Origin: Bacillus sp. NP157
Lineage (GTDB): Bacteria; Pseudomonadota; Gammaproteobacteria; Xanthomonadales; Rhodanobacteraceae
NCBI GenBank assembly: GCA_018889975.1
Contig: CP076546.1
Span: 2,232,001-2,296,000, forward strand
Direction: 5' to 3'
DNA: 64,000 nt
Shown here: one piece after another, positions 2,503-29,568 of the stretch
Numbering within the stretch: position 1 is the stretch's first letter
Layout: each line of letters starts with the position of its first letter
Program-made: the position numbers and the translations under genes
The notes under the pieces: generated by a model
What the model was told of the DNA's origin: nothing
Database searches by the model: none
What the model saw: only the letters and a program-made list of their open reading frames with translations

Positions 2503-3285
2503 TCAGGCGGCCTCCTCGTTGTCCATCGAGGCGGTCAGCGAGAGCATCCAGCTACTCACTTTCTCAAGAGCCTGGAACCGGGTGAGGTCGGTATGGATCG
2601 GCGTGACCGAAACGAAGCCGCGGGCCACCGCGTTGAAATCCGTACCCGGGCCTTCGTCTTCGACCTTGCCCGGCGGGCCGATCCACCACATGTCGCGGCC
2701 GCGCGGGTCCGCCGTGCGGATGGCGGGCGCCGAGCGATGGCGCTTGCCCAGGCGGGTGACTTCGAAGCCCTGGATCTCATCCCACGGAAGATCGGGGACG
2801 TTGACGTTGAGGATCGTGTCCGCCGGCAGCGGATCCACGACCAGCCGGCGGACCAGCATCAGCACGGCGTTGGCGGCGGATTCGAAATGCTCGCCCGAGC
2901 CTTCCTTCGTCACCAGCGACACGGCGATCGCCGGCAAGCCGAGGAAGCGCCCCTCCATCGCGGCCGACACGGTGCCGGAATAGATCACGTCGTCGCCAAG
3001 GTTGGCGCAGTTGTTGATGCCGGAGACGACGATGTCGGTCTCGTGCTCGAGCAGGCCCGACAGCGCCAGATGCACGCAGTCGGTCGGCGTACCCGAGACA
3101 CGGTAGCGGCCATCCTCCATGCGCTGTACGCGGATGGGCGAATCGAGGGTGAGCGAATTGCTTGCGCCGGAGCGGTCGCGGTCGGGAGCCACCACCGTCA
3201 CCGTGCCGAACCCGGCAAGACGCCCGGCAAGGACCCGGATGCCCGGAGCCTCCACGCCGTCGTCGTTGCTAACCAGAACTTGCAT
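2503..3285 (-). CDS. surE: 5'/3'-nucleotidase SurE
   Basis: Survival protein E, a metal-dependent nucleoside-monophosphate phosphatase of 260 aa. The N-terminus [16 protein letters not shown] carries the metal-binding Asp8 and Asp9, followed by [12 protein letters not shown] with Ser39, and the later [11 protein letters not shown] and [20 protein letters not shown] motifs. The ATG at 3285 matches the invariant SurE N-terminus, and upstream in-frame starts are rejected. The ribosome-binding site is weak. It is divergent from the Smr gene and upstream of pcm. Confidence 0.95.
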
Positions 3286-3392
3286 GCTGATCCAGATCGA
3301 AAAACGGGGCTGGCGGCCCCACATCATCGACGGGCCGCAGGACCTCCCAAGTCTACCGGACCGGGACGCGGGATTCACCGGAACCGGCTAGG

Positions 3393-3944
3393 ATGAACCG
3401 AATGAAACGACGCAATGCCTCGGTGCACGACGACGACAGCCGCCTGTTTCGCGAGGCGATCGGCGACGTTCGGCCCATGGTGGCCAAGGAAGTCGTGCCA
3501 GAGCGGCCGCGCCCGGAGCCGGTGCCGATGATGCGCCTGGCCGACGAAGCGGCCGTTCCCGCCGAATCGCTGCTGTTCGAATACGACCCCGCCGAACTCG
3601 AAGTCGGCGAAGAATTGTCGTACCTGCGCGACGGCTACCCGCCGAAACTGTTGAAACAGCTCAAGCGCGGCCAGTTCAGCATCCAGGCCGACGTGGACCT
3701 GCACCAGATGAACGCGGCGGCGGCGCAGATGACCATCGCGGAGTTCCTGGCCGAGTGCCATCGCGATGGCATCCGCTGCGTGCGGATCATCCACGGCAAG
3801 GGGCTGCGCTCGAAAGCCGCCGGCCCCGTGCTGAAGGGCCTGACCGACAAACTGCTGCGCCGCCGCGACGACGTCGTCGCATTCGCCTCCGCGCGACCGA
3901 TGCAAGGCGGCACCGGCGCCGTCGTCGTCCTGCTCAAACCCTAG
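3393..3944 (+). CDS. Smr-domain endonuclease-like protein (SmrB/YfcN type)
   Basis: A 183-aa protein with an acidic, flexible N-terminal half and a C-terminal Smr domain (about residues 95-180). The domain has the DVDLHQMN and RIIHGKGLRS motifs (LDLHGxx and HGxG classes) of MutS2-type nicking domains. Stand-alone SmrB proteins cleave mRNA at collided ribosomes in E. coli; that role is an inference here. It is the only plus-strand gene in the first 11 kb, divergent from surE and convergent with truD. A second Met, at 3402, is an alternative start. Confidence 0.8.
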   Translation: MNRMKRRNASVHDDDSRLFREAIGDVRPMVAKEVVPERPRPEPVPMMRLADEAAVPAESLLFEYDPAELEVGEELSYLRDGYPPKLLKQLKRGQFSIQADVDLHQMNAAAAQMTIAEFLAECHRDGIRCVRIIHGKGLRSKAAGPVLKGLTDKLLRRRDDVVAFASARPMQGGTGAVVVLLKP

Positions 3945-3947
3945 GTT

Positions 3948-3969
3948 GTAGGAGCGCGACTACGCGCGA
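3948..3969 (+). repeat. GTAG-headed REP element, diverged copy
   Basis: Reads GTAGGAGCGCGACTACGCGC plus GA. The GTAG head and outer stem are conserved, but the loop is ACTA instead of the usual CCTG. It lies just after the Smr gene stop, in the convergent gap with truD. Confidence 0.75.
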
Positions 3970-4027
3970 ACAGACTCCCTCGACGCCAGGCCTCCCCGCA
4001 CAGTCGGCCCACCTCGTAAAAGCCACC

Positions 4028-5044
4028 CTACCCCGTCACCGCAATCTCGCGAACCACCGTCGTCGCATACGCCCCCGCCGGCAGCACGAAACCCACCTCC
4101 AGCGCACCATCCTCGAGCCAGCGCCACGCAAAGTCGGACGGCTTGAGACGCAACGCCCGGCGCTCCTGATCCATCCGCGCGCCCACCAGCCCTTCGGCCA
4201 GGTCGGGATCGCGCGCCGCGACGGACGCTTCCAGCGCCGCGGCATCGCCGCCAGCCGGCGACTCGCCACTGCCCCACAACGGGCCGGTCGGATGGATGTC
4301 GAAACGCGCAAGCCGTTCGGCAAGCGTGTCGTTGAACGCTTCCGGCCCGAACCACGAGCGCGAGCCGTCCAGGCCCCAGATCTCGCCGTCCAGCCCCGCA
4401 TCCCACGTCCCGCCCGCTACGCGCTCGGCAAGCACGCCATTGAAGATGTGCGAGCGTGCCGCGGAAAGCAGGATCGAACGCTTGTCGCGATCCACCCGGC
4501 GCCCCTTGAACATCGCGCGTGCCTGTTCGACGTTGTTGCCGCCCAGGCCAAAACGCTGTTCGCCAAAATAGTTCGGCACGCCACGTTCGGCGATGGCCGC
4601 CAGGCGCGCCTCCGCTTCGGCGCGATCGCCCTCGACCTCGCGCAGCACGATCACGAAACGATTGCCACGCAACGCACCGCGCTTGATCTTGCGCGAATGC
4701 CGTCCGAGCGAGGTCAAGGTGACATCGGCGTGCGGGAACGCGCTCCAGTCCGGATCGGCCTTGCCGGGCAGCTGCACGGTGAACACCTGGCGGGTTACCG
4801 CATGACGGTCTTTCATGCCCGCGTAGCCGACGTTCATCGGCGCGATGCCGGCGAACTTCGCCACCTCGCGTGCGACCCAGTCGGTGTTCGCGCCACGCTT
4901 TTCCACCTGCAGGAACACGTGCTCGCCCGCGCCGTCCGGTTCGTAGCCAAGGACCTCTTCGACGAAGAAATCCTCGGCGGCACTGCGCAGGCGGCCGCGC
5001 AGCGGCGGCGCGCCGAAGGCGAAGGGCAGTTCGTTCTCACTCAT
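4028..5044 (-). CDS. truD: tRNA pseudouridine(13) synthase TruD
   Basis: Isomerises U13 of tRNA-Glu to pseudouridine. 338 aa, close to the family length. The catalytic Asp is D79 in GMKDRHAVTRQ; other family blocks are RGNRFVIVLR, VPNYFGEQRFG and an inserted TRUD domain (about residues 155-300). The ATG at 5044 gives MSENELPFAFG, and the gene begins 12 nt after the mgtE stop, suggesting co-transcription with ispD-ispF-mgtE. Confidence 0.95.
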   Translation of the reverse strand: MSENELPFAFGAPPLRGRLRSAAEDFFVEEVLGYEPDGAGEHVFLQVEKRGANTDWVAREVAKFAGIAPMNVGYAGMKDRHAVTRQVFTVQLPGKADPDWSAFPHADVTLTSLGRHSRKIKRGALRGNRFVIVLREVEGDRAEAEARLAAIAERGVPNYFGEQRFGLGGNNVEQARAMFKGRRVDRDKRSILLSAARSHIFNGVLAERVAGGTWDAGLDGEIWGLDGSRSWFGPEAFNDTLAERLARFDIHPTGPLWGSGESPAGGDAAALEASVAARDPDLAEGLVGARMDQERRALRLKPSDFAWRWLEDGALEVGFVLPAGAYATTVVREIAVTG

Positions 5045-5056
5045 GACTTACAGCCT

Positions 5057-6484
5057 TTACATCAGGAACAGGGTGGCCAGGCCCAGGAATATGAAAAAGC
5101 CGCCGCTATCGGTCATGGCGGTGATCAGCACGCTGGAGCCGAGCGCGGGATCGCGGCCCAGCTTCACCATCAGCATCGGGATGCCCACGCCCATGAAGGC
5201 GGCCAGCAACAGGTTCAAGGTCATCGCGGCGGTCATGACCAGGCCCAGCGACGGGCTGTGATACAGCAGCCAGGCGACGACGCCGATCACGCCGCCCCAG
5301 ACCAGGCCATTGATCAGTGCGACGCCAAGCTCCTTGCGCCACAGCCGACCGGCCTGGGCCACCGTCACCTGCTCCAGCGCCATGGCGCGGACGATCATGG
5401 TGATGGTCTGGTTTCCGGAGTTGCCACCGATGCCGGCGACGATCGGCATCAGCGCCGCCAGTGCCACCAGGCGTTCGATCGAATGCTCGAACAGACCGAT
5501 GACGCGCGATGCGATGAAGGCGGTGACCAGGTTGGTGGCCAGCCACGCCCAGCGATTGCGCACGGATTTCCACACGGACGCGAAGATGTCTTCCTCTTCG
5601 CGCAGGCCGCCACGCGACAGCGCTTCGGCCTCGCCTTCCTCGCGGATGAAGTCGATCATCGCGTCCACGGCCAGGCGTCCGATCAGGCGCATCTGCGCAT
5701 CGACCACCGGGGCGGTGACCAGGTCGTAGCGCTCGAAGGCCTGCGCCACGTCGTACGCGTCGTCTTCCGGGCGGAATGTATTGACGTCGGGCGCCATGAT
5801 CTCGTGGACCATCCGGTCCGGCGAGTTCACCAGCAACCAATGCAGCGGAAGCACGCCGGTGAGCACGTGGTCGCCATTGATGACGAACAGCTTGTCGGTC
5901 TGCGCGGGCAGCTCTTCGAAGCGGCGCAGGTAACGCAGCACCACTTCCAGGCTGATGTCTTCGCGGATGGTGACCATCTCGAAGTCCATCAGCGCACCGA
6001 CCTGGTCGTCCTCGAACGACATCGCCGCCTGCACGCGCTCGCGATCCTGCGCATCGAGGCTGGCCATGAGTTCCGGCAGCACTTCGGTGGGCAGGTCATC
6101 GACGAGGTCGGCGAGTTCGTCGGCGTCCAGCGGCTCGACGGCTGCGAGGATCTCGCGATCGTCCATGTCGGCGATCAGCGATTCACGCACCGAGTCGGAC
6201 ACTTCGAGCAGGATCTCGCCGTCGCGATCGCTGCGCACGCGCTGCCAGACCGCAATGCGATCTTCCAGCGGCAGCGATTCGAGTACGTCGGCAAGGTCGG
6301 CGGGATGCAAGCCATCCAGCGTGGCCTGCAGCGCGGCGTCCGCCGCATCCAGGGCGCTTTCGTCGCCGTCCGGCGCGGCACCGGCGAATTCCAGCAGGCC
6401 CTCGCGTCGACGCAGCAGCTCGTTGATCGCCTCGAGCCTGTCGTGCAGGCGCGGCGTCGACGGGCGCGGGTCGAGCTCGGTCAT
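5057..6484 (-). CDS. mgtE: Magnesium transporter MgtE
   Basis: A 475-aa Mg2+ channel/transporter of the inner membrane. It has an acidic helical MgtE N domain (about residues 30-150), two CBS domains (about 155-285) that sense cytosolic Mg2+, and five C-terminal transmembrane helices. The pore signatures [14 protein letters not shown] and [15 protein letters not shown] are present, including the late Asp of the ion path. The start codon at 6484 overlaps the ispF stop (ATGA), so translation is probably coupled to ispF. This position inside the isoprenoid gene block is unusual compared with enteric bacteria. Confidence 0.93.
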
Positions 6485-6957
6485 GCCGGCTGGACCAGCA
6501 CGGAGGCCAGCGCCGCGATACCTTCGCGGCGGCCGGTGAACCCAAGCGTCTCGGTCGTGGTCGCCTTGATGCTGATCCGGTCGATGTCGACGCCAAGGTC
6601 GGCGGCGATGTTCTCGCGCATCGCCAGTGCGTGCGGAAGCACCTTGGGCGCCTCGCAGATCACCGTGATATCGGCGTTCCCCAGCACGTACCCGCGCTCG
6701 GCGACCAGCTCGCGCACGGCGCGCACGAAGGTACGGCTGTCCGCCCCGCGCCACTGGTCGTCCGAGGGCGGGAAATGCTTGCCGATGTCGCCCAGCGCCA
6801 GCGCGCCGAGCAGCGCATCGCACAGCGCATGCAGCACGACGTCGCCGTCGGAATGCGCCAGCACGCCCTGCTTGTGGGCGACGCGCACGCCACCCAGCAT
6901 CACATGGTCGCCTTCGCCGAACGCGTGGACGTCGAATCCCTGACCGATGCGAATCAT
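6481..6957 (-). CDS. ispF: 2-C-methyl-D-erythritol 2,4-cyclodiphosphate synthase
   Basis: Cyclises CDP-ME 2-phosphate to MEcPP with release of CMP in the MEP isoprenoid pathway. 158 aa, full length. Metal ligands are D9, H11 (GFDVHAF) and H43 ([10 protein letters not shown]); the C-terminal [16 protein letters not shown] signature is intact. It overlaps ispD upstream and mgtE downstream by 4 nt each, so the three genes are probably one translationally coupled set. Confidence 0.96.
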
Positions 6958-7643
6958 CTTGTCCTCCCGAGCAGGAACTCCGCCAGCGCGAAGTCGGCCG
7001 GCGTGGTTACCTTGATATTGTCTTCCGATCCCTCGACCAGCAGGGGCGCGATGCCGATGCGCTCCATCGCCATGGCTTCGTCACTGACCACGATACCGTC
7101 GGCAACGGCAAGGCGAAGTGCACGGGCCAGCGCCTCGCGCCGGAACATCTGCGGCGTGAAGGCGCGCCAGCGGCCATCGCGGGGCTCGGTCGCCAGGCTG
7201 TGACCGCCCTCGCCTGCCCGCTTGAGCGTATCGCGCAAGGGTGCGCCAAGAAGGCCACCCTCCTGCTGCCCGGCCTGCTGGATCAGCCGGGTGATGTCGT
7301 CGGCGCGGACACACGGTCGCGCCGCGTCGTGGACGAGGACGAAGGCATCCCCGGCCACGCTGGCCGGCAGGGCGTCGATGCCCGCCAGCACGGAGTAACT
7401 GCGTTCGCTGCCACCGACGGTTGTCAGCAGCGGCTTGCCATGGATCGCCTCGACGGCGGCGAAATGCTGGTCATCCGCGGCGATCACGACCATCAGGCCC
7501 GCCACCAGCGGATGGGCGGCGAGCCGTTCCAGGGTATGGTCCAGCAAGGGCCGGCCCGCCACGGACTGGTATTGCTTCGGCCGGTCACCACCGGCCCGGA
7601 CGCCCTTGCCGGCGGCCGGAATCACGCACCACAGGGCATCCAT
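6954..7643 (-). CDS. ispD: 2-C-methyl-D-erythritol 4-phosphate cytidylyltransferase
   Basis: Transfers CMP from CTP to MEP, forming CDP-ME. 229 aa. The N-terminal nucleotide-binding signature [17 protein letters not shown] is present with its Gly-rich loop and Lys, followed by [11 protein letters not shown] and the C-terminal [13 protein letters not shown]. The start directly abuts the ftsB stop. The arrangement ftsB-ispD-ispF is conserved in gammaproteobacteria. Confidence 0.96.
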
Positions 7644-7987
7644 TACTGGCCGCCGGCGGTCACGGGCGGCGGAGGCGGCGGCACGCTGGTCGCGGCCCCC
7701 GGCTCCACTACCTGGTAGAAGGTCTCACCCGGCTTGATCAGGCCCAGTTCCTGGCGCGCACGCGCTTCGGTGGCCTGCTCGCCATGCTTGAGGTCTTCCA
7801 CGTCCGCGCCCAGCGCTTCGTTGCGCTTTTGCAGCACGGCGTTATCGTCGGCCTGCTTCTTGACCGCCGCGCGCAGGGATTCCACCTCGGCCATCCCCCC
7901 ACCGCCGACCCACAGCTTCAGCTGCAGCGCGATGAGGATGACGACAAGGATCAGGCCGACCCAGCGCAGGAGTGCCGCGTTGCTCAA
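7643..7987 (-). CDS. ftsB: Cell division protein FtsB (TTG start)
   Basis: A bitopic division protein that forms the FtsQLB complex. 114 aa: short cytoplasmic N-terminus, one transmembrane helix (about residues 8-27), then a coiled coil (about 30-75) with an RQELGLIKPGETFYQVV block typical of FtsB. The start is a TTG (7987) preceded by AAAGGGG; no in-frame ATG would retain the membrane helix. The tail is a proline run followed by VTAGGQ, longer than in E. coli FtsB. It begins 9 nt after the eno stop codon. Confidence 0.88.
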   Translation of the reverse strand: MSNAALLRWVGLILVVILIALQLKLWVGGGGMAEVESLRAAVKKQADDNAVLQKRNEALGADVEDLKHGEQATEARARQELGLIKPGETFYQVVEPGAATSVPPPPPPVTAGGQ

Positions 7988-7996
7988 GGTGCCCCT

Positions 7997-13226
<5,230 letters not shown>

Positions 13227-21579: not shown

Positions 21580-21903
21580 ATGACCTTTGTCGTTACCGAC
21601 AACTGCATCAAGTGCAAATATACGGACTGTGTCGAGGTTTGCCCGGTCGACGCCTTCCATGAAGGCCCGAACTTCCTGGTGATCAACCCGGACGAGTGCA
21701 TCGACTGCACCCTTTGCGAGCCGGAATGCCCGATCAATGCGATCTACCCCGAGGACGACGTCCCCGCCGGGCAGGAGCAGTTCGTGGCGCTCAACGCCGA
21801 CCTCGCGAAGGACTGGCCCGTCATCACCGAACGCAAGGACGGGATGCCGGACGCCAAGGACTGGGAAAACAAGCCCAACAAGATCGAGCTGCTGCAGAAG
21901 TAG
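21580..21903 (+). CDS. fdxA: Ferredoxin FdxA (7Fe type)
   Basis: A 107-aa electron-transfer protein with two cluster-binding regions: [19 protein letters not shown] and [16 protein letters not shown]. Spacing fits a [3Fe-4S]/[4Fe-4S] ferredoxin. The long acidic C-terminal tail is typical of FdxA. The stop codon TAG is formed by the REP element that begins at 21900. The start lies 28 nt after the tRNA-Glu gene. Confidence 0.93.
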
Positions 21904-21921
21904 GAGCGCGCCTGCGCGCGA
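21900..21921 (+). repeat. GTAG-headed REP element overlapping the fdxA stop
   Basis: A perfect copy of the consensus (GTAGGAGCGCGCCTGCGCGC plus GA). Its TAG is the fdxA stop codon, so the gene and repeat overlap. Confidence 0.9.
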
Positions 21922-21984
21922 TAGCCCGGCACGAAGCCCCGGCCCGTCTCACGCCGCACCACCCCAACTCCCCCGCAGCGACCC

Positions 21985-22896
21985 TTACGGCCCGCTGACC
22001 GCCTGGTCACCCGGCTGGTAGTCAAAGCTCGCAGCGCCGGCCTGAACGGTCGGAAGCGTCAGCCGGATGATCGGCACCCAGCGCCCCGCCGTCGCCTTGA
22101 AATCCTTCTGGATGAACTGCGCGGTCGCCAGGCCCGGGGGCGACGAGCCCAGGTAGAAAAGCGCCTCCAAAGGCACCTTGTCATCCCGCCCCGGCGCCCA
22201 GCCATCCAGCACCAGTTCGTTGGGCTTGGAATCGTGCTGCTTCAGGTCGAGGATCGCCTCGGCTTTTATGACCTCTCTAAAGATTGCCGCCGACTCCCCG
22301 GCGTGCCGGGCGACGGTGAAGCTGCACTGGCGCTTATAGACACCCCCGGCAACCTCGGTGAAATGTCGCAACCAGGCAGTCGCCGTGGTGATCCCTTGCG
22401 GCTGGCACGGTCCGCTAGTGGCGATGCCACCGGACGGACCGCACCCCTTATCGGCGCGTGAGTCGGTGTCCCCATCGATCGGGAATGCACAAAGCACTTC
22501 GGGCGAATCGAACCCGTCACGATGGGCGTAGTAATCCGGGTAGAAGATGAGCCCTGCCCGGTAGGTGTAGGCCAGCCGCAACAAGGGTGCGTCACGGCGC
22601 AGGTACGAGAACGATACGCCGGGAAACTTTGCACTCCCCGGGTTGACGTCCCAGGAATGATAGTTGGGCGACGCGTCGACGCCGCGCAGCATGATGCCGT
22701 TGCAGACGAACGCTGGCGCGTTCGGATTCGCCCCGTCGCACGTACCCACGTCGTCATAGCGGCTTTGCAGGTGCTCGAGCACCGTGGGCCCGTCTTCCTC
22801 GAAGGCCGCGGTCGCGTGCGTGCGTACCGGCGGACTCGCGCAGCCGCCGAGAAATGTAACGAGGACCACGAACCAGGCAACGCGCCGGCTATCCAT
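21985..22896 (-). CDS. Exported lipoprotein, HvnA/halovibrin-like
   Basis: A 303-aa protein with a lipoprotein signal (FLGGC, Cys19), so it should be anchored in the envelope or exposed. The mature part has short conserved blocks: CNGIMLRGVD, YHSWDVNPGS, GVSFSYLRRDAP, VLCAFPIDGDTDSRADKGCG, and C-terminal PIIRLTLP. These match the block order remembered for halovibrin (HvnA-type NAD-glycohydrolase/ADP-ribosyltransferase) proteins; this is from memory and not tested. It is a paralogue of the divergent neighbour at 23153-24097. The start at 22896 follows GGGAGG. Six or more Cys residues could form disulfides. Confidence 0.55.
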   Translation of the reverse strand: MDSRRVAWFVVLVTFLGGCASPPVRTHATAAFEEDGPTVLEHLQSRYDDVGTCDGANPNAPAFVCNGIMLRGVDASPNYHSWDVNPGSAKFPGVSFSYLRRDAPLLRLAYTYRAGLIFYPDYYAHRDGFDSPEVLCAFPIDGDTDSRADKGCGPSGGIATSGPCQPQGITTATAWLRHFTEVAGGVYKRQCSFTVARHAGESAAIFREVIKAEAILDLKQHDSKPNELVLDGWAPGRDDKVPLEALFYLGSSPPGLATAQFIQKDFKATAGRWVPIIRLTLPTVQAGAASFDYQPGDQAVSGP

Positions 22897-23152
22897 GTCT
22901 TGCCTCCCTGGCCACACCTTCCGTGGTGCACAGGCAGTGTGGTTCGTGCGCGAGCGCGGATGCAATCGGCCAACTGGCCGACTCGCCGCGCGCAACGCCA
23001 GGTCCATGCCGCCCATACGATCAGGCACCTCCACCAGCGTTGCCGAATCCACGCACGCCGCGCCTACGTCGTCAGGCGTATTTACGCCGTGGCAGGCCCG
23101 GGGGATCGTGGCCTCGCCGACGGCGCGAGCCGCGACGCCAGGGAGATCCATC

Positions 23153-24097
23153 ATGAAAGGACGCGTCCACCTGCTGTGTATCGCTGCGACCGCATTGGCG
23201 GCTTGCACCACGGCACCTACCCGGCCGCCAGCCCATCAGCCCGCGGCTGCGCGCGAAGACCACAGCGTCGAAGGGCAAGCCGTGGCCGCTGACCTGCAGC
23301 TTCGGTTCGATTCCATAAACGACAGTGACCCGATCAACACGACATGCAACGGTCCCCGCATGCCGGTGTTCCTGTGCAGCGGCATCTTGCTGCGCGGCAC
23401 ATCCAATTTCAGCAGCGCCTACCACTCGTGGGACGTCAATCCGAACAGCACGAAGCCTGGCGGAGTTTCGTTTTCCTTCCTGCGCAAAGACGCCTCCTAC
23501 AGCAAGCTGGCGTATGGCTATAACCACGGCTTCATGTTCTGGCCCGACCTGCACCTGCCGCCGGACAAGATGGAGATCGAGGTGCTGTGTTATTTCCCGA
23601 TGGACGCGGCGAGCGATATCCGTGCCGACCAGGGGTGCGGTGCCAATCGAAAGTATCCGGAGGACAGCAAGCCTTGCCAGCAGCACGTGCCTCCCATCGT
23701 GACGGGTGACGCGTGGCTCCGGCTATACAACAGCGCACCCGAGGGCGAGAGCCAGCGCGAGCACTCCTGCGGCTTCACCATGATCACCGGCACGGCGAAC
23801 TCCGCGCATATCTTCAAGGAAGCCATCGGCGTGATTGGCAGCGTACGCGGCGCCTTCTTCGAATCGCAGGATGAGGCCGTCCTGCAGGCGTGGCCGATCG
23901 GCCTCGGCGAAATGTTGCCGCTACAGAATTTCTTCTATCTGGCCGGCTCGGCTGGCCTCGCGCAGTCGCGGCTCGACCAGCGAGATTTCTACGCTACCAC
24001 GAACCAGTGGCGGCCAGTGATCCGGGTCACGCTGCCAGGCGCCCGGGGCGCGGAAGCCAGGTTCGAGTACGTCCCCGCAGACCAGGACATACCGTGA
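23153..24097 (+). CDS. Exported lipoprotein, HvnA/halovibrin-like paralogue
   Basis: A 314-aa protein with a lipobox (LAAC, Cys18). It shares the block series with its divergent neighbour: CSGILLRGT, YHSWDVNPNS, GVSFSFLRKDAS, VLCYFPMDAASDIRADQGCG, FFYLAG, WRPVIRVTLP. The middle of the protein differs more. The start at 23153 has GGGAG about 8 nt upstream. The two genes are head-to-head across a 256-nt gap and may share regulation. If the HvnA assignment is right, they would act on NAD or as ADP-ribosylating enzymes at the cell surface; this remains an inference. Confidence 0.55.
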   Translation: MKGRVHLLCIAATALAACTTAPTRPPAHQPAAAREDHSVEGQAVAADLQLRFDSINDSDPINTTCNGPRMPVFLCSGILLRGTSNFSSAYHSWDVNPNSTKPGGVSFSFLRKDASYSKLAYGYNHGFMFWPDLHLPPDKMEIEVLCYFPMDAASDIRADQGCGANRKYPEDSKPCQQHVPPIVTGDAWLRLYNSAPEGESQREHSCGFTMITGTANSAHIFKEAIGVIGSVRGAFFESQDEAVLQAWPIGLGEMLPLQNFFYLAGSAGLAQSRLDQRDFYATTNQWRPVIRVTLPGARGAEARFEYVPADQDIP

Positions 24098-24154
24098 GCA
24101 AGGAGGTCGGCCACCGTGCCCAACGGCTGGGTGTCGGGGCTGAGGACGCGAACG

Positions 24155-24180
24155 AAAATGCCGCCCTGGGGCGGCATTTT
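24155..24180. terminator. Bidirectional intrinsic terminator
   Basis: The hairpin AAAATGCCGCC / GGCGGCATTTT with loop CTGG lies 57 nt after the plus-strand lipoprotein gene. The A and T runs allow use on both strands, also ending minus-strand bamC transcripts. Confidence 0.8.
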
Positions 24181-24224
24181 CACGTTACGGACCTTGCAGG
24201 TCCCAGCCGGGCTGGCGGGGACGA

Positions 24225-24246
24225 TCGCGCGCAGGCGCGCTCCTAC
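24225..24246 (-). repeat. GTAG-headed REP element
   Basis: A minus-strand perfect consensus copy, between the lipoprotein terminator and the bamC stop codon. Confidence 0.88.
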
Positions 24247-24250
24247 AGGG

Positions 24251-24856
24251 TTACTTCACGCCGAGGCGTGCGCGCAGTGCGTCGATCACGCGACGGACGC
24301 CGCTGGCGTCGCCCTGGGCGCGTACTTCCGAGCCGGCGCCGCTGGCGTTGACCGTGAGCACCACGGCGCGCTTGCCGCCGCCCTGCTGCGCGGCCTGCGG
24401 ACCACCTTCGATGGCCTCGTCCGGGTTCTTGCTGCCGCCGCCGAACATGCGCTTGAAGAAGCCGCGATGCTCTTCCGGCGCGCCGGAGGTAGCGGCGATC
24501 TGGTAGGTGTGGGTTTCGTCGTCATGGGCGGTGACGGCACCGACATCACCCACGGACAGGACTTCACCGATGCGCTTGTAGGCGGCATCCGGCGCGTCGG
24601 CCAGGATGAAACCGTCCGAGACCGGGGCGGCGGCCGCGGCGGCGTCGGACGGAGCCCCACCCGCGCCTGAACCGGCATCGGGGATGACCAGCGCCGCGCT
24701 CGTCGACGGCGTATCCAGGCCCGGCGGAATCTCCAGCGGAGCTTCCTGCTTGGCCTTTTCCCACTGTTTCGTGGAGCGGAACGCGCCGCAGCCGGATACG
24801 ACCAGGACGGACAGGAGCAGTGCCGGGACGACCAGCGCGTACGAGGTTTTCTTCAT
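24251..24856 (-). CDS. bamC: BamC-like outer-membrane assembly lipoprotein (short form)
   Basis: A 201-aa lipoprotein: the signal MKKTSYALVVPALLLSVLVV ends in a VSGC lipobox. The segment PLEIPPGLDTPS resembles the BamC lasso region, and one helix-grip-like domain follows (about residues 70-200). E. coli BamC is about 344 aa with two such domains, so this is a shortened form. It lies immediately downstream of dapA, as bamC does in E. coli, which supports the call. The start ATG at 24856 has GGAA upstream. Confidence 0.65.
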   Translation of the reverse strand: MKKTSYALVVPALLLSVLVVSGCGAFRSTKQWEKAKQEAPLEIPPGLDTPSTSAALVIPDAGSGAGGAPSDAAAAAAPVSDGFILADAPDAAYKRIGEVLSVGDVGAVTAHDDETHTYQIAATSGAPEEHRGFFKRMFGGGSKNPDEAIEGGPQAAQQGGGKRAVVLTVNASGAGSEVRAQGDASGVRRVIDALRARLGVK

Positions 24857-24908
24857 GAACAAAGGTTCCGTTGGAATCCGTTTTAAGGGGCCGTTCTAAT
24901 CGGGTAGG

Positions 24909-28494: not shown

Positions 28495-28617
28495 GCACCA
28501 CCGCCGGGGCGGTCCGCCGCCCCGGCCACCTTGCCGCACGCGCCCGCCTACCCCATGGGGGTAAACTATCGGCTGTTCCGGGCCGATCGTGCCGCCCGCC
28601 CCCTTGAGTGCAACCCC

Positions 28618-29568
28618 ATGAATTTCCTCGGGCCCCGCTTCATCGTCCTGTACGTCCTGGTGCTGTTTTCGCTGTGCGTCCTGCTGGTGCACCTGCGCGG
28701 CCGCTCGCGCCTGCGCTTCGATCGCCAGCTGGTCGACCACTCGGCACTGTTCGCGCCCTACAACCTGCTGATGTACGCGTTTTCGGCCGTGCCGGCACGG
28801 CCGATCCTCGATCGCCGCGGCTTCCCCCAGCTCGACCTCCTGCAGGACAACTGGCAGGCGATCCGCGAAGAGGCGATGCACCTGTTCGACGAGGGCTATA
28901 TCCGCTCGGCGGAAAAACACAACGACGCGTCGTTCAACTCGTTTTTCAAACAGGGCTGGAAGCGCTTCTACCTGAAGTGGTACGGCGAGCCGCTCGCATC
29001 GGCCGAAACGCTGTGCCCGGAAACGGTCAAGCTGCTCAACTCGATCCCCAGCGTGAAAGCGGCGATGTTCGCCCTGCTTCCGCCGGGCAGTAAGCTCAAC
29101 CCGCACCGCGACCCGTTCGCTGGCTCGCTGCGCTACCACCTGGGCCTGATCACGCCGAACTCCGACGATTGCCGCATCTTTGTCGATGGGGAAATGCACG
29201 CGTGGCGCGACGGTAAGGACGTGGTCTTCGACGAAACCTACGTGCACTGGGCGGAAAACCGCACGGACCAGACCCGCGTCATCCTGTTCGCCGACGTCGA
29301 GCGTCCGTTGAAGAACCGGATGATGACGGCGATCAACAAGCGCGTCGGCGCGTTCATGGGTTCGATCACCGCATCGCCCAACAGCGACGATGGCAAGGAG
29401 CAGGTCGGCTTCGTCAATCGCATGTTCGCGCTGAACCAGCGCGGCCGCGAGCGGACGCGGAAGTTCAAGAAGGCCAACCCTAAGCTGTTCCGCGCGGTGA
29501 AGTATGTCGGCATCGTGCTGATGGTGTGGCTGATCTTCCTGGCGCCGTATCCGTTTTACCGCGGTTAG
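28618..29568 (+). CDS. lpxO: Aspartyl/asparaginyl beta-hydroxylase family, LpxO-like lipid A hydroxylase
   Basis: 316 aa, membrane-anchored at both ends (residues 5-24 and 292-312). The catalytic domain shows the iron ligands in KLNPHRDPFAG and FDETYVHWAEN, and the co-substrate Arg in TRVILFADVERP. This pattern matches LpxO, which adds a 2-OH to lipid A secondary acyl chains. Other members of the family hydroxylate proteins, so the substrate remains an inference. The start ATG at 28618 gives an MNFLGPRFIV N-terminus. Confidence 0.75.
   Translation: MNFLGPRFIVLYVLVLFSLCVLLVHLRGRSRLRFDRQLVDHSALFAPYNLLMYAFSAVPARPILDRRGFPQLDLLQDNWQAIREEAMHLFDEGYIRSAEKHNDASFNSFFKQGWKRFYLKWYGEPLASAETLCPETVKLLNSIPSVKAAMFALLPPGSKLNPHRDPFAGSLRYHLGLITPNSDDCRIFVDGEMHAWRDGKDVVFDETYVHWAENRTDQTRVILFADVERPLKNRMMTAINKRVGAFMGSITASPNSDDGKEQVGFVNRMFALNQRGRERTRKFKKANPKLFRAVKYVGIVLMVWLIFLAPYPFYRG

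Follow-up and report, generated by a model that had tools for sequence, protein, structure and literature searches.

Two halovibrin-family lipoprotein genes

The DNA analyzed here, referred to as the window, is a stretch of 64,000 nucleotides from the genome deposited as Bacillus sp. NP157 (contig CP076546.1, positions 2,232,001 to 2,296,000), a bacterium of soil and plants that belongs to the genus Luteibacter. The window carries two adjoining genes, hvn1 and hvn2, that the original prediction described as a divergent pair of related, exported lipoproteins of 303 and 314 residues resembling halovibrin (HvnA). Both frames are open and their starts are divergent, with a purine-rich, ribosome-binding-like stretch a few bases 5′ of each ATG:

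21985..22896, minus strand: hvn1 (P0001), HvnA-family lipoprotein, 303 aa, with motif residues R71, S95/S97, D141, R147, and E227
22897..23152, no strand: spacer between the hvn1 and hvn2 start codons, 256 bp
23153..24097, plus strand: hvn2 (P0002), HvnA-family lipoprotein, 314 aa, with motif residues R81, S106/S108, D151, R157, and E241

The description of the pair holds. The encoded proteins share 41% of their residues across an alignment of 289 positions (E 4e-64), far beyond chance, each begins with an export signal and lipobox (see below), and the conserved blocks previously read from the sequence (e.g., GILLRGT/GIMLRGV, YHSWDVNP, and PxIRxTLP) are found in both. Neither a single-protein query nor a 46-row profile revealed a third copy in the host genome (4,875,246 bp, one contig) at E ≤ 0.001.

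The suggested relationship to HvnA was borne out by profile search, which matched P0059 (‘halovibrin HvnA’) with E 2.6e-69 over 90%. A 408-residue protein from Pseudomonas aeruginosa, P0084, is 35% identical to hvn2 (E 8e-42) and 33% identical to hvn1 (E 8e-37). P0084, with 877 member sequences and a DUF2599 domain at residues 302–408, equals P. aeruginosa HvnA (PA1914) in length and domain borders as given in PMC3510237. By sequence, hvn1 and hvn2 are thus new members of the HvnA/halovibrin family. Three protein searches returned 19, at least 59, and at least 176 relatives (120 of the 176 are listed), the latter two counts being lower bounds as only ∼8000 candidates sharing most words were scored; several relatives are labeled halovibrin HvnA or HvnC by their sources. 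Pfam and NCBIfam gave no match above cut-off for hvn1 or hvn2.

In PMC3510237, the halovibrins of Vibrio fischeri are called secreted, and regions I–III are named, with region III designated the active site. Titles cited there report halovibrins first as ADP-ribosyltransferases and later as nicotinamide adenine dinucleotide (NAD+) glycohydrolases, the latter activity being assigned to V. fischeri HvnA and HvnB by the title of Stabb 2001 (cited in PMC3510237 and PMC11112999). The Luteibacter pair is of the same domain family as P. aeruginosa HvnA and V. fischeri HvnA/HvnB, is likewise predicted to be exported, and has the same conserved blocks. It differs from these proteins in having a lipobox, in lacking the C-terminal DUF2599 of P. 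aeruginosa HvnA, and in lying at a chromosomal site of variable gene number. Pseudomonas lipoprotein relatives (P0139 of P. prosekii and loci L003–L006) also have a lipobox; L004, L005, and L006 contain two adjoining lipoprotein genes, of which one or both are hvn, the second judged from its first residues only. Eight Pseudomonas loci encode proteins 35–41% identical to hvn2, and their gene neighbors differ from those of the Luteibacter site. At L003, L006, L007, and L012, the Pseudomonas hvn seemingly adjoins KaiC-like and response-regulator-like genes, again judged from first residues only.

Among other relatives, P0022, P0066, and P0115 each contain two HvnA domains as judged by eye, P0154 has Ig-like repeats, and others have DUF2599 tails; the HvnA domain is therefore used in several architectures. 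Among the matches listed, P0144, P0150, P0156, P0158, and P0160 (Photorhabdus, Serratia, and Xenorhabdus) are labeled ‘N-acyl homoserine lactonase’ by their sources. The metal site of that enzyme is HxHxDH, which occurs in 0 of 179 family proteins, and P0144 and P0150 have no NCBIfam match; we reject this name for the family, and the label looks like a propagated error.

A pattern test found a hydrophobic signal and a lipobox at both N-termini, LGGC followed by Ala in hvn1 (Cys19) and LAAC followed by Thr in hvn2 (Cys18). Because the residue following the lipoprotein Cys directs sorting, Ala or Thr rather than Asp at this position favors the outer membrane as the putative location. The host genome encodes GspG (PF08334), a marker of type II secretion, so display on the outer face of the cell is possible. 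A strict lipobox is present in 71 of 179 family proteins, the pair and Pseudomonas members included (57/89 of those with 260–370 residues and 14/89 of longer ones), although the pattern overlooks some likely lipoproteins. The lipid-anchored form of a secreted effector that had been proposed is hence supported by sequence as far as the anchor is concerned, and is neither special nor new within the family.

Predicted fold and putative active site

The predicted folds of both proteins match the solved Arg-Ser-Glu (R-S-E) ADP-ribosyltransferase CteC well above background, so the models point to an NAD-using fold and not to an unrelated one. CteC, a Chromobacterium violaceum type III effector that mono-ADP-ribosylates Thr66 of ubiquitin, is the closest solved fold and the only one that matches the models convincingly; SopF, CopC, and DarT are weak second matches, and the Foldseek matches beyond CteC (PyrR and others) have E values of 0.6 or more.

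The conserved Arg, Ser, and Glu lie in this order on predicted strands 1, 2, and 5. In hvn2 numbering, R81 is present in 46/46 alignment rows, S106 in 41, S108 in 44, and E241 in all 46, and hvn1 and hvn2 keep every one of these residues. D151, present in 44/46 rows, lies just after strand 4 and is likened by its spacing to CteC D134, the Asp that partners the catalytic Glu. CteC and the hvn pair share the R-S-E order and have an Asp after strand 4 that may be equivalent, and the Asp-to-Glu stretch comprises 86 residues in CteC, 90 in hvn2, and 86 in hvn1. At the first position of the Q/E-x-E motif, which ends in the catalytic Glu, Gln occurs in 25/46 rows, including hvn2 and not hvn1; CteC also lacks Gln or Glu at this position (PMC11281641). 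Between strands 4 and 5, where CteC has a ubiquitin-recruiting insertion (PMC10810742), both models are largely helical and rich in Cys, and the conserved Cys residues there distinguish the hvn proteins from CteC. The proteins also differ in that they have no detectable sequence similarity, and delivery by type III secretion into the cytosol, as for CteC, does not fit hvn1 and hvn2, both of which have a Sec-type signal and lipobox.

We consider it likely that both proteins are exported HvnA-family enzymes with a CteC-type R-S-E fold that split NAD+ outside the cytoplasm. In the mechanism we infer, hvn1 and hvn2 would be exported by Sec, receive a lipid, and reach the outer membrane. NAD+ would be bound outside the cytoplasm in the ADP-ribosyltransferase fold and nicotinamide split off. 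The Arg would hold the diphosphate, and the Glu (E241/E227) and the conserved Asp (D151/D141) would act on the nicotinamide ribose. ADP-ribose would then go to water, as reported for the NAD+ glycohydrolases HvnA and HvnB of V. fischeri, and possibly also to a target that would dock on the Cys-rich segment linking strands 4 and 5. The likely object would be a neighboring eukaryote or the NAD it releases. Luteibacter is known, according to abstracts, from plants and fungi, even from inside hyphae, so a eukaryotic partner is plausible; the words ‘ribosyl’ and ‘lipoprotein’ are absent from PMC9040847, on a Luteibacter–fungus partnership.

NAD+ cleavage is the most likely activity of the Luteibacter members by analogy, through the predicted fold and the activity reported for V. 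fischeri HvnA/HvnB, and the tie to the latter goes via the 44% identity between PA1914 and both V. fischeri proteins given in PMC3510237. Several points weigh against this reading. The motif does not hold throughout the family: P0084, which is outside the counted alignments, deviates at one motif position invariant in them. The match to CteC has a template modeling score by query of 0.38–0.41 and a root-mean-square deviation (rmsd) of 7.4–8.6 in Foldseek, and an rmsd of 3.7–5.3 over 171–195 residues in VIA; the residue correspondences with CteC follow from order, spacing, and strand rather than from a superposition of coordinates. The models of hvn1 and hvn2 are not independent, because most alignment rows are common to both. 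A sequence search of the PDB with the single protein and the 46-row profile matched no solved structure, CteC included, so the link to CteC is a structural one. Finally, no Pfam model covers the HvnA domain in ten members scanned, and NCBIfam likewise names none of those scanned.

The same evidence bears on a second reading, that hvn1 and hvn2 are target-specific mono-ADP-ribosyltransferases like CteC, with a target that is probably fungal, protist, or plant, selected by the segment that joins strands 4 and 5, and with NAD+ hydrolysis as a side reaction. CteC being the sole convincing fold match, the helical, Cys-rich stretch at the place of its ubiquitin-recruiting insertion, and the multiplication of divergent family members within the genus (see below) are all in its favor. 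However, the V. fischeri enzymes are described as NAD+-glycohydrolases, a lipid anchor gives no obvious route into the eukaryotic cytosol, and conserved Cys residues are unlike a cytosolic docking domain; we regard this reading as somewhat unlikely, and NAD+ cleavage outside the cytoplasm as the probable function.

A recurrent chromosomal site in Luteibacter

The pair occupies a site that recurs across the genus, bordered in the window by two genes:

21580..21903, plus strand: fdxA, encoding the ferredoxin FdxA and bounding the recurrent site on the left
24251..24862, minus strand: lipoprotein-like gene of 203 aa (start codon provisional) ahead of dapA, right border of the site

The 203-residue lipoprotein-like gene, a candidate for BamC by its position only, has no match in Pfam or NCBIfam. 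Of 23 genus genomes searched, 22, our own included, were mapped by means of marker proteins together with a profile for hvn; the remaining genome is 80% complete and has no fdxA match. The maps share the gene order panC-panB-folK-pcnB-fdxA-[site]-lipoprotein-dapA-gcvR-bcp-phoH (panC, panB, folK, pcnB, fdxA, and dapA above NCBIfam cut-off; gcvR, bcp, and phoH named from matches below it), and dapA adjoins the lipoprotein gene in all 22. Downstream of phoH, window positions 28531–29568 encode a member of the aspartyl/asparaginyl beta-hydroxylase family (PF05118, E 7.9e-51).

In 12/22 genomes, fdxA and the lipoprotein gene are separated by 108–231 bp; in the other 10, one, two, or three hvn genes lie between them. 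Relative to fdxA, the hvn strands are minus only (-, --, or ---) at seven of these sites, ++ at two, and -+ at the window alone. The divergent order had been taken to suggest common control. We reject it as evidence of co-regulation, as the orders vary and a simple consensus scan of 21900–24260, spacer included, gave no sigma-70-like promoter match, which is weak evidence given the simplicity of the scan.

A second site lies beyond panC, where hvn stretches occur in at least 9/22 maps (L067, L071, L072, L074, L077, L078, L081, L082, and L084/L085), a lower bound because the maps extend unequally in this direction. In L085 (G004), positions 3053–11150 beyond panC hold nine direct-tandem hvn domains, eight of them paired in four frames of 568–721 codons. 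Overall, the hvn2 query matched 15/23 genus genomes and left 8/23 without a match, with 0 to 17 stretches per genome, some partial. Outside the genus hvn is sparse: a search of the family matched 7/117 genomes and 2/26 genera, that is, one of the 25 other genera sampled. A class-wide search matched 1/369 genomes, our own, and is weak evidence of absence because at most six candidates were scored per genome and Pseudomonas relatives exist.

A quick tree built from 54 rows places hvn2 with the plus-strand single genes of G019 and G020 (support 100); hvn1 has a long branch and joins none of the well-supported groups. The pair had been described as duplicated; the two related copies are real, and the tree and the 41% identity lead us to reject a recent tandem duplication. 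With hvn2 allied to genes of other genomes and hvn1 not firmly placed, the pair would seem to stem from gene turnover at this recurrent site. The ratio of nonsynonymous to synonymous substitution rates (dN/dS, Nei-Gojobori) is 0.11–0.25 in three orthologue comparisons of hvn and 0.12 in one second-site pair, with dS near saturation in several hvn pairs; it is 0.03–0.12 for fdxA, panC, and phoH and 0.12–0.25, like hvn, for the lipoprotein gene. Between the window and G019, protein identity is 60% for hvn2, 76% for the lipoprotein, and 89–93% for fdxA, panC, and phoH. Given these ratios and identities, the hvn genes are under purifying selection and evolve faster than their housekeeping neighbors.

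The content of the site informs two further explanations. At 8/10 occupied sites there is no other frame of 100 codons or more, bar one overlapping hvn in L071. Extra frames lie inside the fdxA site in L078 (14689–15351, minus strand, 220 codons) and L080 (14377–14991, minus strand, 204 codons); both contain a Pro-rich part and resemble a zinc ribbon at the C-terminus, with matches below Pfam cut-offs, and are otherwise dissimilar. The proteins could scavenge at the cell surface, cutting environmental NAD+ for uptake of its nicotinamide and ADP-ribose parts, which would suit the lipid-anchor signal, the eight sites without another convincing gene beside hvn, and the presence of members in both Luteibacter and Pseudomonas. 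We hold this to be distinctly unlikely, since a copy number ranging from none to 17 stretches and identity below that of housekeeping neighbors fit interaction better than nutrition. That the proteins are antibacterial toxins delivered to neighbors is highly improbable: variable multi-gene arrays at recurrent sites and the extra frames in L078 and L080 speak for it, but there is no constant immunity-like partner, PADLOC gave no match above cut-off for either protein, and the export signal is of the Sec/lipoprotein type.

Implications for halovibrins

Cleavage of NAD+ outside the cytoplasm remains our favored function for the pair. A broader reading joins fold and genomic distribution, and we offer it tentatively, as it is rather unlikely in full: the halovibrin family would be a surface-displayed, disulfide-braced branch of the CteC type that keeps the Arg-Ser-Asp-Glu active site and uses the segment from strand 4 to strand 5 as an exchangeable target-recognition module. 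Multiplied at fixed chromosomal sites in plant- and fungus-associated Luteibacter, its members there would have diversified into contact-acting modifiers of eukaryotic partners, beyond cleavers of NAD+.

Literature searches found no paper on Luteibacter together with halovibrin and no structural tie between halovibrins and CteC, the latter being no proof as key papers of both fields were outside the search. The assignment of the predicted fold to CteC makes the question of transferase versus glycohydrolase activity in halovibrins directly testable with CteC assays, and it points to residues whose loss should abolish activity. The recurrent site in turn provides natural sets of Luteibacter genomes with zero, one, two, or three hvn genes for genetic comparison.
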